Shown: positions 3,506 through 8,561 of the stretch, piece by piece
Numbering within the stretch: position 1 is the stretch's first letter
Layout of the letters: every line of letters starts with the position of its first letter
NCBI GenBank assembly: GCA_007118975.1
Contig: SKQO01000074.1
Span: 1-59,547 of the forward strand
DNA length: 59,547 nucleotides
Direction of reading: 5' to 3'
Origin: Halobacteriales archaeon
GTDB lineage: Archaea; Halobacteriota; Halobacteria; Halobacteriales; SKNY01
The notes under the pieces: generated by a model
Databases searched by the model: none
Told to the model about the DNA's origin: nothing
The model's input: only the letters and a program-made list of their open reading frames with translations
Position numbers and translations under genes: made by a program

Positions 3506-3976
3506 TTACCGCAGTGGCGACTCCCAAAACTCAACGTTCCCCCGAATGAGAACGACGTATGCGGCGAGCAGCCAAATGGCTAGTTCAACAAAAAAGGCGG
3601 GCGTCCCCACATAGTAGATCGCGAACTCAAGTGGCGGGAGACGGACATCGGGAGTGTGCCGGACGAGCGGCCACAAAAGAAACGTGACATCGCCGGGACG
3701 GCCGTTGATAGCCATCTGGAGTGCATCCAGTGCGAGGTGAGACGCCCATCCCACCCAGATTGCCATCCACAACCGCGAACGCCACGCCAAAAGCCCCACC
3801 ACCAAGAGCGTGAAGATCGAGTGACCGATGGTATGATAGAGATCGACAACGCCGAGCATCGCCAGGGGCTTGTCGATGACGTCGGGCAGCGCAGCCCCGA
3901 CGACCACCCACGCCACCGGGAGTTGGAACCACCGACCTAGTAGATAGCCCGCCAACAGGTGCGTAGGAAAGAGCAC
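3506..3976 (-). CDS. Membrane-bound metal-dependent hydrolase, YdjM/DUF457 type
   Basis: A 156-residue integral membrane protein with about four helices. It carries the family's scattered His/Asp residues: 'FPTHLLAG' near the N-terminus, 'LPDVIDKP', 'YHTIGHSIF' and 'SHLALDAL'. These are typical of the YdjM/DUF457 'inner-membrane metal-dependent hydrolase' family, whose reaction is not established. The start is a GTG at 3976. It lies 88 bases upstream of sppA on the same strand and downstream of the glycosyltransferase. Confidence 0.85.
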   Translation of the reverse strand: MLFPTHLLAGYLLGRWFQLPVAWVVVGAALPDVIDKPLAMLGVVDLYHTIGHSIFTLLVVGLLAWRSRLWMAIWVGWASHLALDALQMAINGRPGDVTFLLWPLVRHTPDVRLPPLEFAIYYVGTPAFFVELAIWLLAAYVVLIRGNVEFWESPLR

Positions 3977-4056: not shown

Positions 4057-5172
4057 TCATGATTCGCCGAGTCGCGCTGCCACCAGCCGGGAGAGCCCTC
4101 GCTCGAAACGCTCCGGACGAAATCGATTCGGCGAAAACTCCGGCCGGTGACGCTCGTCGATCGCACGGGCCAGTTTTTCGACGGCGTCGGATGGATCCGT
4201 GAACAGTCGATCGCCGCGCCCCTGGAGAATTTCCCGCTGACCGCCGGCATTCGGTGCGAACGGAATCATACCGGCCGCGACGTATTCAGCGACGGCAATC
4301 CCGAACGATTCCCGCGGTCGGACGTTTAGTCCGTACCGGTGGGTTCCAAGCAGATCAACGATCCGCGAGCGGGGAACATCCGTCTCGATGGTGACGTAGG
4401 AGCGGGTGGCGACCAATCGTCGCACCGCTCGGTGATATTGGCGGTATGCACGCGGGGCGCTACCGACGAGGTGGAGGTGGAGATCGTATCCACGACCACG
4501 AAGTCGATCGACGATCTCAATCGCGGCGTGAACCCGTCTATCCGGTGCGATGCGCCCCAGCAATACGATCCCCTGTTCCCGGGCCTCCCAGTCCAGGACT
4601 GTTGGAATTGGGCATACCGGCGGGTAGAGGACGCGGGGGCGGAGGCCGTAAATGTGTTCGAACGCGTCGGCCGTCCACGCAGAATTCGCCACGTACGTGG
4701 CCAAGCGGTGTTCCGAGATGTCAGTCGGCGCCGCGACACGACTCCAGATCCGGTTGATGCGCCCGGGCTCGGCATCCGCCAGCCGATGGAGTTCGAACTG
4801 GGGAAAGTGGACGTACTGGACGGATGGGATCGGGAGGGACAACTCGTTGGTCGTACTGACGACCAGTTCGTATTCCGTGGCGATCGGGTCAAAGGCCCGC
4901 TTGACGATGGCACTTCTGAGGGCGAGCTGTGCCCCGATATGCGGGGCAAAACGAGCAAGCACGGAGGCGATGGTGCGACTCCAGGACGGTTCACAGAGAC
5001 GCACGTCGACATCGAGACCAAACCGCTCGGCCAGTGATTTGTGATCCGTCTCGGAAATCGTAACGAGGTCGACGTCGTGGGTTCGAGACAGACACGAACA
5101 AGCCGTCAACGCTACACGGTCCGCTCCCCCCTGGAAGTCGAGGGTGTTATGGAGGACGGCTACACGTGCCAT
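4057..5172 (-). CDS. GT4-family glycosyltransferase
   Basis: The ATG at 5172 gives a 371-residue GT-B glycosyltransferase. The N-terminal domain opens with 'RVAVLHNTLDFQGGADRV' and contains 'YVANSAWTADAFE' (about 160-172). The C-terminal domain has 'IVLLGRIAPDRRVH' (about 202-215) and the ExxxxxxxE donor-binding motif 'ESFGIAVAE' (Glu288 to Glu296) followed by 'GGQREIL'. An upstream open frame to 5481 lies inside the opposite gene and is rejected. It should transfer a sugar from a nucleotide donor to an unknown acceptor. It is divergent (95-base gap) from the CDP-alcohol phosphatidyltransferase operon, which suggests a related role. Confidence 0.88.
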   Translation of the reverse strand: MARVAVLHNTLDFQGGADRVALTACSCLSRTHDVDLVTISETDHKSLAERFGLDVDVRLCEPSWSRTIASVLARFAPHIGAQLALRSAIVKRAFDPIATEYELVVSTTNELSLPIPSVQYVHFPQFELHRLADAEPGRINRIWSRVAAPTDISEHRLATYVANSAWTADAFEHIYGLRPRVLYPPVCPIPTVLDWEAREQGIVLLGRIAPDRRVHAAIEIVDRLRGRGYDLHLHLVGSAPRAYRQYHRAVRRLVATRSYVTIETDVPRSRIVDLLGTHRYGLNVRPRESFGIAVAEYVAAGMIPFAPNAGGQREILQGRGDRLFTDPSDAVEKLARAIDERHRPEFSPNRFRPERFERGLSRLVAARLGES

Positions 5173-5267
5173 ATATTGAAGGGAACGGCCTCGGACGATA
5201 AGTGAACGGACCGTCCCAGCGGCTTTTTCGTCCCTCGTCTTGAGACTGCGGACGTCAAACGCACAGT

Positions 5268-6035
5268 ATGGTCCACGCTCGAACGATCCCGGGGCAGCTC
5301 CGATGGCAGTGGTATTTCGTCGTCTCGGCGTGGCTCCTTGGCGTGGTCGGCCTCGGATCGGCGTGGTACTGGTGGATGGATGAGCCAGGGCTGGCCGGGA
5401 CCTGGGCCCTCGGTGCCATTCTCGTTGGCGGGTTCGTCGTCGCGACCGTCCGGCTCCATCTGCGGCGAAACCACCCCCCAAACCGGCCCGAACGCACGTT
5501 TTCGACCCTCGGGCCGGCCACGCTCATCACCCTGATTCGCGGAGGATGTCTCACCGTGCTTGCCGGCATGGTCCTCGTTTCTCCCGCCGGGGTCCATTGG
5601 TGGCTTCCCGCGGGACTCTACGCCGGCGTTGCAGGCCTCGACTGGATCGACGGCCGGGTGGCCAGACGCACCAACCGCGTCACCGTGCTCGGGGAACGTC
5701 TCGATATGGCGCTCGACACCGCCGGGCTGTTGATCGCCACCATCGTAGCCATTCGTTGGTACCACCTGCCGGTTTGGTATCTCTGCATGCCCGCTGCCAG
5801 GTATGTCTATCGCGCTGGAATCGGCCTCCGTGAACGGCGAGGAAAACCGGTATTTCCCCTGTCTGACAGCCGCATCCGCCGGCCGATGGCGGGCCTTCAA
5901 ATGGCCTTCGTTGCGATCGCGTTGCTGCCGATCCTTCCGAAGCGTGCCATCGTCATCGGTGCCGCGATCGTCATGATTCCGGGGCTTTTGGTCTTCGTTC
6001 GGGACTACCTGGCAGTGACTGGGCGGATCGGGTGA
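5268..6035 (+). CDS. CDP-alcohol phosphatidyltransferase family membrane enzyme
   Basis: A 255-residue membrane protein with the complete CDP-alcohol signature D-xx-DG-xx-AR-x8-G-xxx-D-xxx-D between Asp125 and Asp150, beginning 'DWIDGRVARR' and ending 'GERLDMALD'. The family swaps CMP for an alcohol, making phospholipid headgroups or phosphodiester-linked polar lipids. An extended N-terminus with two helices (about 15-65) precedes the core. It is the first gene of a close operon with the PTPS-like protein and the methyltransferase, and is divergent from a GT4 glycosyltransferase. The alcohol acceptor cannot be deduced. Confidence 0.9.
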   Translation: MVHARTIPGQLRWQWYFVVSAWLLGVVGLGSAWYWWMDEPGLAGTWALGAILVGGFVVATVRLHLRRNHPPNRPERTFSTLGPATLITLIRGGCLTVLAGMVLVSPAGVHWWLPAGLYAGVAGLDWIDGRVARRTNRVTVLGERLDMALDTAGLLIATIVAIRWYHLPVWYLCMPAARYVYRAGIGLRERRGKPVFPLSDSRIRRPMAGLQMAFVAIALLPILPKRAIVIGAAIVMIPGLLVFVRDYLAVTGRIG

Positions 6036-6038
6036 GTT

Positions 6039-6509
6039 GTGCACGGACGGGCCACCGGCGAGACCGACAATTCCAACCTGATGGGTGTGCATACCCCACG
6101 CATGCACTCGGCGGCGCAACGATATCGACTCGGGATCGAACGAGAACTCACTGCCCGTCATTTTCTCACCGTTCCCGATGCTGGTCCCGAGGGTGAGTTG
6201 CACGCCCACCACTATGGCGTGGAGATCGTACTGGAGGGGGCGGAACTCGACGAGTACGGCTACCTGGTCGATATCGATCGGCTGGAAGTACTGCTCGATG
6301 AAACCCTCGAGCGATTTTCGGGAGCCATTCTCAACGATCTCGCGGAGTTCGGAGGCGATAACCCCAGCGTCGAGCGGTTCGCCCGTGTCATCGGCGACGC
6401 TGTCGCCGGAACACTGGACGCCCCCCACCTGGATCTGCTGACGGTACGGCTGTGGGAGGACGACGTTGCGTGGGCGAGCCACCAGCGACCGCTCGCCGAC
6501 AGCCGATGA
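6039..6509 (+). CDS. 6-pyruvoyltetrahydropterin synthase / 6-carboxytetrahydropterin synthase-like protein
   Basis: The fold is recognisable from 'ARHFLTVPD', 'GELHAHHYGVEI', 'EYGYLVDIDRLE', 'LNDL' and 'NPSVERFARVI'. Zinc ligands His41, His55 and His57 (GTG numbering) are present. The catalytic Cys that normally stands four residues before the HxH is Glu51 instead (ExxxHxH), so ordinary PTPS or QueD activity is doubtful. Glu-for-Cys replacement is known in PTPS-III enzymes, which act on dihydroneopterin. The GTG at 6039 sits 3 bases after the previous stop; internal ATGs at 6081 and 6102 are good alternatives. Its stop overlaps the methyltransferase start (ATGA). Confidence 0.85.
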   Translation: MHGRATGETDNSNLMGVHTPRMHSAAQRYRLGIERELTARHFLTVPDAGPEGELHAHHYGVEIVLEGAELDEYGYLVDIDRLEVLLDETLERFSGAILNDLAEFGGDNPSVERFARVIGDAVAGTLDAPHLDLLTVRLWEDDVAWASHQRPLADSR

Positions 6510-7360
6510 ACCACGCAGACCCGCGATACTTAGAGGCGAAACGGACCGTGGACCAGCGGGCGCGATCAACGCGGGTTCGCGAAACGTTTTGCGATGCTTT
6601 ACCCGACTCCCCGCGGATTCTAGAAATCGGTTGCGGGACCGGAAGTATGGTCACGAACCTCGTCTCATGGGGGATTGAAGGGTTTACGTATGTCGGCATC
6701 GATCTGGCGCCCAACGTCACCGCCTTCGGCGGATGGCTGCGGCCGAAGGAACTCCGATGGGCGGGCTATAAGGCTCAACAGACGCCGGATGGTGGACGCC
6801 TGGGCGCCACTTCGTTCGCGTTTCGGCCAGGGGAGGCCGTCTCGTGGCTGGAAACGGTAGAATCCGCGGATGCGGTCATCGCTCAATCCGTACTGGATCT
6901 CCTCGACATCCCAACTGTGTTGTCAGCTATCGAGCACGCTTTATCTACGGGTGGTGTCCTCTATGCCCCACTCACCTTTGATGAGGTGACGGTGTTTCTA
7001 CCCGAACATCCGGCGGATGACCACGTCCTCACCGCGTACCACAGACAGCTGGCTGCCAGTGACGGGAGCCCGCGAGCGGGACGAAAGTTGCTGGCGGCCC
7101 TCGAGGAAAAACCCGGTCGCACACTCGCGGTCGACAGCGCCGACTGGATCGTACGGCCGAAGCAGAGTACATATCCCGCAGACGAAGCGTGGTTCCTCGA
7201 CCGAATTCTCTCCATGGTCGGAAACGCCCTCGAGGATGCCGATGAACCCGAATATAAGGTCTGCGAGGAATGGCTTGCTACCCGACGAGCGCAATTACGG
7301 CAGGCACGGTTGCAGTACATCGCCCATCAGTACGATGTGCTCCACCAGTGGCCAGGGTAG
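6506..7360 (+). CDS. Class I SAM-dependent methyltransferase
   Basis: The ATG at 6506 overlaps the TGA of the PTPS-like gene and gives 284 residues. The SAM-binding motif I 'RILEIGCGTGSM' lies at about 37-48, followed by 'YVGIDLA' (motif II acidic residue). The C-terminal half is rich in Trp, Tyr and His and has no recognised substrate domain. The substrate is unknown. Tight coupling with the CDP-alcohol phosphatidyltransferase and PTPS-like genes suggests the three act on one pathway, possibly a modified lipid or pterin-derived product; this is inference from order only. Confidence 0.85.
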   Translation: MNHADPRYLEAKRTVDQRARSTRVRETFCDALPDSPRILEIGCGTGSMVTNLVSWGIEGFTYVGIDLAPNVTAFGGWLRPKELRWAGYKAQQTPDGGRLGATSFAFRPGEAVSWLETVESADAVIAQSVLDLLDIPTVLSAIEHALSTGGVLYAPLTFDEVTVFLPEHPADDHVLTAYHRQLAASDGSPRAGRKLLAALEEKPGRTLAVDSADWIVRPKQSTYPADEAWFLDRILSMVGNALEDADEPEYKVCEEWLATRRAQLRQARLQYIAHQYDVLHQWPG

Positions 7361-7469: not shown

Positions 7470-8561
7470 ATGCTTGGCCTCGAAGCGTGGTTTGGATCCG
7501 TCGAAGCGAAGATCGTGGGGACGATCATCGTCACCCTCGCCGCCGGAATCGGGATGATACTGATACGCGGGATTCGCCGGCTTGGCAGGGAACGCCTCTC
7601 GCCGGTGATGCTCGATCTCGCAGCTTCCACGGTGATCGTCGCTATCGTCGTACTCACGACACTCGTGATCGCCGACATCTGGGGTCAAACAGACGCTCTC
7701 TTCGATCAGCTCGGGTTTCTCCGGATCGACGCGAGAGCCCCGGAGGTGATCGTCACGATCGTCGTGCTCATCGCCATTCAAGTGTTCACGGGAATCTCGC
7801 GACGATTGCTCGACGACCTGGCCCACGAGAGCAACACGTTGACCGACCACCAGCGGGAGGTAGGAGTTCGGATTAGCCAACTGGCGCTCTGGACGATCGG
7901 CCTCATCGTTATTCTCGGCGTCTGGGACATCGACCTGACCGGGATCCTGGTCGGTGCGGGGTTCCTCGGCATCGTACTCGGCCTGGCGGCACGAAAGACA
8001 CTCGGATCGCTGATGGCCGGGCTGGTGTTGATGTTCTCCCGACCTGTGGAAGTTGGCGACTGGGTCGCGGTGGACGGCCACGATGGCGTTGTGACGGATA
8101 TCACGCTGATGAGTACGCGGATTCGATCGTTCAACGGGGAGCGGGTGATCGTTCCCAACGATGTCATCACTGGAGAGATCCTGGTCAACCGATCCCGCGA
8201 GGGACGACTTCGCGTCGAGCAAGAAGTCGGGATCGACTACGACGACGATGTCGATGCAGCCGTCGAACTGGCTGGGTCAGTCGCGGCGACGGTCGTGGAG
8301 GACCACGAGAAGGGCCTCGAAAAACCGCCTGTCTCCGTGCTCGTTCGCCGACTGGACGATTCCGCTGTCACCCTCTCGGTGCGACTCTGGCTCGATAATC
8401 CACGGGCCGCGGACGTGAACGACGTCCGCCATCAACTGATCGAACGCCTCAAAACCACGTTCGACGAGGCCGGCATCAGTTTCCCGTTTCCCCAGCAGAC
8501 GCTGAGCACACGCCCGGAAGCGAGATTTCCGGGGTCCGACGGAGAGACGGACGAAGACTGA
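7470..8561 (+). CDS. mscS: MscS-family mechanosensitive ion channel
   Basis: A 363-residue small-conductance mechanosensitive channel. Helices lie at about 15-33, 50-70, 92-108 and 137-153. They are followed by the pore helix and beta-domain signature 'GLAARKTLGSLMAGL' to 'RPVEVGDWVAVDG' (about 171-203), then 'TRIRSFNGERVIVPN'. The C-terminal alpha/beta domain ends in an acidic tail. The channel opens under membrane tension to release solutes during hypo-osmotic shock, relevant for a halophile. It is a single gene, 110 bases after the methyltransferase. Confidence 0.95.
   Translation: MLGLEAWFGSVEAKIVGTIIVTLAAGIGMILIRGIRRLGRERLSPVMLDLAASTVIVAIVVLTTLVIADIWGQTDALFDQLGFLRIDARAPEVIVTIVVLIAIQVFTGISRRLLDDLAHESNTLTDHQREVGVRISQLALWTIGLIVILGVWDIDLTGILVGAGFLGIVLGLAARKTLGSLMAGLVLMFSRPVEVGDWVAVDGHDGVVTDITLMSTRIRSFNGERVIVPNDVITGEILVNRSREGRLRVEQEVGIDYDDDVDAAVELAGSVAATVVEDHEKGLEKPPVSVLVRRLDDSAVTLSVRLWLDNPRAADVNDVRHQLIERLKTTFDEAGISFPFPQQTLSTRPEARFPGSDGETDED

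Follow-up and report, generated by a model that had tools for sequence, protein, structure and literature searches.

The T-fold proteins of the PTPS/QueD superfamily (COG0720) include QueD itself (PTPS-I) and PTPS-IV, a branch represented by SCO6650 of Streptomyces coelicolor (structure 3d7j) which, in PMC5445326, is defined by an FGPAQ signature and found with PF00925 and PF01872 genes nearby. According to PMC5041015, PTPS-IV takes part in F420 synthesis (cited there as unpublished work), the function of PTPS-V is unclear, and PTPS-III carries an ExxHGH motif. A second reference point is the early archaeal riboflavin and F420 pathway (ArfA, ArfC), for which PMC8305020 reports riboflavin auxotrophy upon deletion of arfA (HVO_1284) and cites, for the homologue MJ0145, a title on a new class of GTP cyclohydrolase leading to formylaminopyrimidine nucleotides. 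Here, we analysed a contig of a Halobacteriales archaeon (SKQO01000074.1, assembly GCA_007118975.1; 59,547 nucleotides, hereafter the window), in which genes for a CDP-alcohol transferase, a PTPS-like protein and a methyltransferase stand beside a GT4-type glycosyltransferase gene (Table 1). They represent one version of a broader gene cluster, distributed among haloarchaea, a few other archaea, actinobacteria and proteobacteria, which has in our estimate an even chance of producing a methylated, glycosylated, GTP-derived pyrimidine or pterin conjugate with a predicted phosphodiester link to a membrane lipid. The bacterial branch (PTPS-IV) is already named in the literature; in the literature searched, with subscription papers mostly outside it, we found no description of the combined set of alcohol dehydrogenase (ADH), PTPS, GT4, methyltransferase and CDP-alcohol transferase, of its haloarchaeal counterpart, or of its product.

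The core of this gene set is jointly present or absent across haloarchaea. Among 98 genomes of the order, counting that of the window, the PTPS-like protein was detected in 55, including those of cultured Haloarcula and Halobellus, and the methyltransferase in 51 of these 55 and none of the 43 others (52 genomes matched, one 22-bit match being dropped). The ADH was counted in 53 genomes, each with a best match of at least 209.7 bits (56 matched at E 1e-20, three with 86 bits or less being dropped), and the CDP-alcohol transferase in 48 (49 matched, one 21-bit match being dropped). Of the 79 genomes with a completeness of 90% or more (hereafter the good genomes), 47 had the PTPS-like protein, the methyltransferase and the ADH and 32 had none of the three, with no mixed case (Fisher p 7.6e-23 for the methyltransferase and for the ADH with the PTPS-like protein, shared descent being ignored), and the CDP-alcohol transferase occurred in 41 of the 47 positive versus 2 of the 32 negative genomes. 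Four genera (g6, g7, g8 and g17) hold both states, the first three genes switching jointly in all four. Four PTPS-positive genomes, 64–81% complete, lacked the methyltransferase, and two lacked the ADH, namely the window's own (78% complete) and G080 (71%). All ten haloarchaeal plasmid records that contain the PTPS-like gene carried the methyltransferase as well, two of them being from the same strain. In Haloarcula marismortui (NZ_CP039137.1 232705-233039 and NC_006395.1 104289-104623), the PTPS-like match falls into two pieces with no annotated gene and a one-piece methyltransferase match adjoining, which is perhaps a broken copy.

The neighbourhoods of the gene display a recurrent composition. 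We considered up to 20 kb around it in 52 of the 54 other positive genomes together with the first 16 kb of the window, making 53 loci, some of which end at contig ends, and counted families by six-frame profile search. Besides the PTPS gene itself (53), they hold the ADH (44), a common GT4 glycosyltransferase (42), the methyltransferase (39), the CDP-alcohol transferase (32), a DUF7475 membrane protein (25), GTP cyclohydrolase III (22), a Gfo/Idh/MocA-AKR family (12) and an FkbM methyltransferase (6). The glycosyltransferase family of the window, GT4w, was found in seven loci and never together with the common GT4, neither being present in four; judging from this mutual exclusion, GT4w most likely replaces the common GT4. 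A weakly sulfatase-like protein stands near the ADH in 7 of the 53 loci (L046 11467-12351 and six related ones), with a PF00884 score of 20.6 bits that lies below the cut-off.

GTP cyclohydrolase III is present in 93 of the 98 genomes, an occurrence to be expected for riboflavin and F420. The cyclohydrolase adjoining the ADH belongs to this family (PF05165, 9e-87, one member scanned). Ten genomes carry two full-length copies, one of which lies 1.0–3.7 kb from the PTPS-like gene in all ten, and no double copy was found in the 43 PTPS-negative genomes, so that the simplest reading is an extra copy dedicated to the cluster. Outside the order, the PTPS profile (1e-12) was run on 294 genomes drawn from the phylum, where 44 matched, including 10 beyond the order that were all examined. 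Four of these (G142, G168, G289 and G293) have a QueD-like Cys, with no cluster genes shown, and the other six display contrasted parts of the cluster: a 577-residue fusion of GTP cyclohydrolase II (PF00925, 3e-66) and ADH (PF00107, 6e-11) followed by PTPS-like and GT4 genes (G145), separate methyltransferase, RibA, ADH, PTPS-like and GT4 genes (G115), ADH, PTPS-like, GT4 and CDP-alcohol transferase genes (G321), ADH and PTPS-like genes (G178 and G194), or PTPS-like and GT4 genes (G213). The same place in the cluster is thus taken by GTP cyclohydrolases from two Pfam families, GTP cyclohydrolase II in these other archaea, once fused to the ADH, and GTP cyclohydrolase III in haloarchaea.

Counterparts were also recovered from bacteria. 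A plasmid search with the SCO6650 sequence yielded 21 records, 20 of them bacterial, and 14 of these 20 were fetched; eight of the 14 loci hold an ADH-PTPS-GT4-methyltransferase block. Ten loci are annotated (Streptomyces fungicidicus, Microbacterium, Thiodictyon, Methylosinus, Peteryoungia, Neorhizobium, Agrobacterium, Rhizobium, Palleronia and another Rhodobacteraceae) and present ADH, PTPS and methyltransferase genes in that order on one strand, with a GT4 gene in nine (between PTPS and methyltransferase in eight, upstream in Palleronia). These ten clusters further contain a RibD family gene (8), RibA (5), at least one of these two (9), the CDP-alcohol transferase (6), FkbM (3) and a cytochrome b (4, one scanned), and the RibD family genes scanned in two clusters carry the RibD C-terminal reductase domain. 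In an Arthrobacter record without annotation, ADH and GT4 adjoin the PTPS gene by profile, with no methyltransferase match. When applied to the 14 loci, the haloarchaeal profiles found their best matches in the cluster genes: 2e-59 to 5e-71 for the ADH, 7e-26 to 3e-60 for the GT4, 9e-27 to 2e-34 for the CDP-alcohol transferase, 2e-13 to 3e-26 for the methyltransferase and 2e-11 to 2e-19 for the PTPS, and apart from these genes only the ADH profile matched a second Zn-ADH in Palleronia (1e-7) and the GT4 profile a glycogen synthase (1e-8). By these best matches, the haloarchaeal and bacterial gene sets are homologous and not merely same-named. The earlier note made on the window, which had staked its four-gene proposal on conservation of the gene order, is borne out to the extent that the gene set is kept across haloarchaea and has homologous bacterial loci; its four genes are real, and they form only part of a wider system whose ADH, GTP cyclohydrolase and bacterial counterparts it did not include. 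No relative was confirmed in viral contigs.

The PTPS-like protein of the window belongs to PF01242 (82.5 bits for a cut-off of 22.4), and its closest solved relative is SCO6650, both by sequence profile (54.3 bits versus 35.8 bits for QueD) and by fold, an AlphaFold2 model (mean predicted local distance difference test score, pLDDT, of 89.9) finding 3d7j as its best match in the PDB (E 3.8e-11) with QueD behind. Residues were tallied in 120 cluster homologues listed of 467 found, in the 14 bacterial proteins, and in 20 of the 53 other PF01242 matches of the 98 haloarchaeal genomes (hereafter paralogues). The zinc-ligand His residues and the replacement of the catalytic Cys by Glu, both proposed in the earlier note, were retrieved in the homologues, with, in the numbering of that note, His41 in 120/120, His55 in 119/120, His57 in 120/120 and Glu51 in 120/120 (residue 30 when counted from ATG 6102). 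The Cys site is occupied by Ala in 14/14 bacterial proteins and by Cys in 20/20 paralogues, and the third zinc His, kept in all cluster homologues, is Ala in 14/14 bacterial proteins. The Asp-His pair in the dyad segment exists in 20/20 paralogues, 0/14 bacterial proteins and 1/120 cluster homologues, and the ring-anchoring Glu is kept in all 154 aligned sequences; we take Cys and the Asp-His dyad to be the catalytic residues of QueD. The bacterial and haloarchaeal proteins thus share the loss of Cys and dyad, and differ in that the former have Ala and no third zinc His while the latter carry GPEG with Glu and three His. The FGPAQ signature occurs in 13/14 bacterial sequences, including all ten clusters, and is absent from the window protein and from all 120 homologues listed. 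Their neighbourhoods are alike in the ADH, GT4 and methyltransferase and in part the CDP-alcohol transferase and a GTP cyclohydrolase. In place of the PF00925 gene reported near PTPS-IV, haloarchaea have GTP cyclohydrolase III, and no RibD_C (PF01872) lies nearby among the matches listed; RibA is present in the archaeal clusters G115 and G145.

These residues also bear on a folate-type function, in which the protein would be a 6-hydroxymethylpterin synthase (PTPS-III or PTPS-VI) with incidental neighbours. Although a Glu does replace Cys here as it does in the PTPS-III motif, the Glu of ExxHGH stands three positions before the first His, where the cluster homologues have Gly in 120/120, their own Glu standing four before; moreover, 32 of the 79 good haloarchaeal genomes lack the gene, and the genes around it are more than incidental, given their joint presence and absence and the bacterial homologues of the same set. 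We regard this function as very improbable.

The public annotation of the PTPS-like protein, 6-carboxytetrahydropterin synthase, raises the question of whether it could be a QueD variant serving archaeosine or preQ0. It does share with QueD the fold, PF01242, the zinc His and the ring-anchoring Glu, but reaches only 43.3 bits with the QueD model (cut-off 89.25), lacks the Cys in 120/120 and the Asp-His dyad in 119/120 of the homologues listed, and coexists with a separate QueD-type paralogue in many of the same genomes. Since weak QueC matches are found in all 98 genomes, QueC was counted from 90 bits upwards. No association with QueC appeared over the 79 good genomes (30 with both, 17 with the PTPS-like protein only, 24 with QueC only, 8 with neither; Fisher p = 0.33). 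By contrast, every genome with the other paralogue also has QueC (46 with both, 0 with the paralogue only, 8 with QueC only, 25 with neither). The exception comes from genus g14 (seven loci: L032, L039, L070, L073, L074, L075 and L082), where GTP cyclohydrolase III and QueC occur close to the PTPS-GT4 pair, with a radical-SAM (S-adenosylmethionine) QueE-like gene also nearby in 5/7 loci, where the PTPS-like gene adjoins QueC and the QueE-like gene, and where no second PTPS-family gene was found; six of the genomes have the CDP-alcohol transferase, ADH and methyltransferase grouped elsewhere, and the remaining one (71% complete) yielded none of the three. Within this genus, such a context favours a link to queuosine/archaeosine. 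G087 (99% complete), however, has QueC without any PTPS-family match, and a missing QueD therefore does not force the variant into an archaeosine role. The earlier note had asked about Cys-bearing homologues beside queuosine/archaeosine genes: these proved to be the separate QueD paralogue, as its proposal needed, while the Cys-less gene of g14 beside QueC and the QueE-like gene speaks the other way. Altogether, a QueD variant strikes us as barely plausible for the cluster.

In the proposal, lipid transfer would fall to the CDP-alcohol transferase. We tested the motif D(x)2DG(x)2AR(x)8G(x)3D(x)3D, which we take to be that of the CDP-alcohol phosphatidyltransferase family, and found it exact in the window protein, in 25 of 30 haloarchaeal and in 6/6 bacterial members, the other five having a spacing one residue shorter. 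The cluster proteins thus share with archaetidylinositol-phosphate synthase and other CDP-alcohol transferases the full motif and the Pfam family, but miss all NCBIfam equivalog cut-offs by far, the best model for the Streptomyces cluster protein being archaetidylinositol-phosphate synthase at a weak 23.8 bits. Genomes G076 and G092 contain a CDP-alcohol transferase of the cluster family without PTPS-like protein, methyltransferase or ADH. For the ADH, GYA or GYS stands in 36 of 43 sequences at the position of GHE, presumably the motif of zinc ADHs (six sequences being unmatched by the pattern); the "zinc-binding" name of the cluster ADH may therefore be wrong.

Such enzymes could also belong to an envelope glycolipid or inositol-type phospholipid pathway, in which a headgroup is decorated and the PTPS fold has been recruited for a sugar or polyol step, with no GTP-derived part. 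The Gfo/Idh/MocA-AKR profile in 12 of the 53 loci and the loss of the PTPS catalytic residues would suit it; so would the inositol monophosphatase gene of the Palleronia locus, and the mdoH and membrane protein genes (flippase-like or lysylphosphatidylglycerol-synthase-like) that some bacterial clusters have nearby. Against it stand the two Pfam families of GTP cyclohydrolase in the cluster, the RibA-ADH fusion, the RibD-type reductases, and the QueD ring-anchoring Glu kept in 120/120 homologues and 14/14 bacterial proteins. We consider it unlikely.

Involvement in F420 (deazaflavin) metabolism, with the cluster making or decorating F420, has in its favour the unpublished work cited in PMC5041015, which places PTPS-IV in F420 synthesis, and the presence of CofG in all 79 good genomes. 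This very ubiquity argues the other way: as CofG occurs in 79/79 of them and the cluster in 47/79, F420 itself does not require the cluster, and a branch of F420 metabolism is quite unlikely in our view. The resemblance to the early ArfA/ArfC pathway lies in the GTP cyclohydrolase III encoded within or close to haloarchaeal clusters and in the RibD-type reductases of the bacterial ones; the differences are that the cluster copies have genes for PTPS-like protein, GT4, methyltransferase and CDP-alcohol transferase as neighbours, and that the cluster is missing from 32 of the 79 genomes that all have CofG. Two ideas about this chemistry were rejected. A creatininase considered as the ArfB deformylase of the pathway reaches only 37 and 21.2 bits with the ArfB model, for a threshold of 180. 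Likewise, a Met at the site of E. coli RibA Tyr105, which presumably alters the product, fails as a general mark of cyclohydrolases that form formylaminopyrimidine, being restricted to the Streptomyces cluster RibA, with Tyr in the other four of five and in G145 and G115.

The proposed conjugate pathway could run as follows. GTP cyclohydrolase III (haloarchaea) or II (bacteria and other archaea) would open GTP to a ribosylaminopyrimidine phosphate, whose ribose C1' would be reduced by a RibD-type reductase, encoded within the cluster in most bacteria seen and presumably supplied by housekeeping ArfC in haloarchaea. The ADH would then oxidise a secondary alcohol of the reduced chain. FolE makes a 1-deoxypentulose by Amadori rearrangement, and C2' is an attractive choice because oxidation there would give the same 1-deoxypentulose. 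We infer this sequence of C1' reduction and C2' oxidation from the enzyme set, and it fits the RibA, RibD-type reductase, ADH and T-fold protein found together in bacteria. The PTPS-like protein may bind the intermediate and aid ring closure rather than side-chain cleavage, since it keeps the ring-anchoring Glu and has neither the Cys nor the Asp-His dyad. With CDP-archaeol as donor, or CDP-diacylglycerol in bacteria, the CDP-alcohol transferase would attach a phospholipid moiety to this polyol or to its phosphate, and the GT4 and methyltransferase would decorate the conjugate. The earlier note's suggestion of a product that is linked to a lipid or through a phosphodiester and combines methyl, sugar and pterin-like parts is partly supported, and fits the data better than the alternatives tested.

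Several observations weigh against this pathway. Since the active sites differ (Glu with three His in haloarchaea, Ala with the third His lost in bacteria), it is not certain from these residues that the two groups of PTPS-like proteins catalyse the same reaction. In g14, the PTPS-like gene is split from the ADH and methyltransferase and lies beside QueC. The CDP-alcohol transferase went undetected in 6 of the 47 positive good genomes and is present in 2 of the 32 negative ones, and no ADH orthologue was found in the window's genome (78% complete), whose best ADH-type matches reach 77-86 bits. No haloarchaeal RibD_C copy lies near the PTPS-like gene among the matches listed, so that the reduction step needs ArfC in haloarchaea. 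RibA keeps its usual Tyr in four of five bacterial clusters, where a formylaminopyrimidine product is therefore not implied. Finally, three of the 14 fetched loci, all on Streptomyces plasmids (L105, L110 and L111), have the PTPS gene without the cluster. In these three, the PTPS-IV-type gene is found near cupin, sigma-70 or BTAD-regulator genes, with a discoidin-domain gene in two of them.

Within the window, the four central genes all score above their Pfam cut-offs, and neither the ADH gene nor the GTP cyclohydrolase gene known from the wider cluster adjoins the PTPS-like gene, the genome having a single GTP cyclohydrolase III, on another contig. The open reading frame of the PTPS-like protein is open from GTG 6039; however, a start at ATG 6102 is more likely because the public protein (P0001) has 135 residues and the family profile aligns from position 6105. 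This start likely leaves 66 bases after the CDP-alcohol transferase gene. Consequently, the earlier picture of three touching genes holds for the ATGA overlap of the methyltransferase, and not for the 3-base gap, which needs GTG 6039; the divergent arrangement of GT4 and CDP-alcohol transferase with 95 bases between them is correct. The YdjM-type family, a possible accessory, was seen in 8 of the 53 loci, the window counted, and in Haloarcula halophila a gene annotated as a metal-dependent hydrolase and likened to the window protein by size alone lies near the cluster. The MscS-type channel family occurs in just 3 of the 53 loci, and the window's channel is therefore probably not part of the cluster.

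Table 1. Genes of the cluster and its flanks in the window
Feature	Position	Strand	Evidence or remark
YdjM-type membrane protein, 156 amino acids, possible accessory	3506..3976	-	PF04307 3.2e-7
GT4-type glycosyltransferase, 371 amino acids, GT4w family	4057..5172	-	PF00534 2e-11, 44.1 bits vs cut-off 26.4
CDP-alcohol phosphatidyltransferase family membrane protein, 255 amino acids	5268..6035	+	PF01066 7.6e-16; motif DWIDGRVARRTNRVTVLGERLDMALD intact
PTPS-like T-fold protein, 135 amino acids from ATG 6102	6102..6509	+	PF01242 3.1e-23
Class I SAM methyltransferase, 284 amino acids	6506..7360	+	PF13489 2.9e-7; ATGA overlap with PTPS-like gene
MscS-type channel gene	7470-8561		Shortly downstream

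Taken one step further, the product could be a lipid-anchored glycosylated pterin acting as a membrane-bound cofactor common to archaea and bacteria and made through the FolE-independent route outlined above, an idea that we consider unlikely. A lipid-linked pterin, if true, would be a kind of membrane cofactor not met in the literature searched. Phosphohalopterin would be a speculative candidate for the product, and a literature search for it brought up nothing. The pathway would also give a role to a PTPS subfamily annotated as 6-carboxytetrahydropterin synthase despite lacking the catalytic residues, and would join the SCO6650-type clusters of Streptomyces and the GTP cyclohydrolase III clusters of haloarchaea into one testable pathway.

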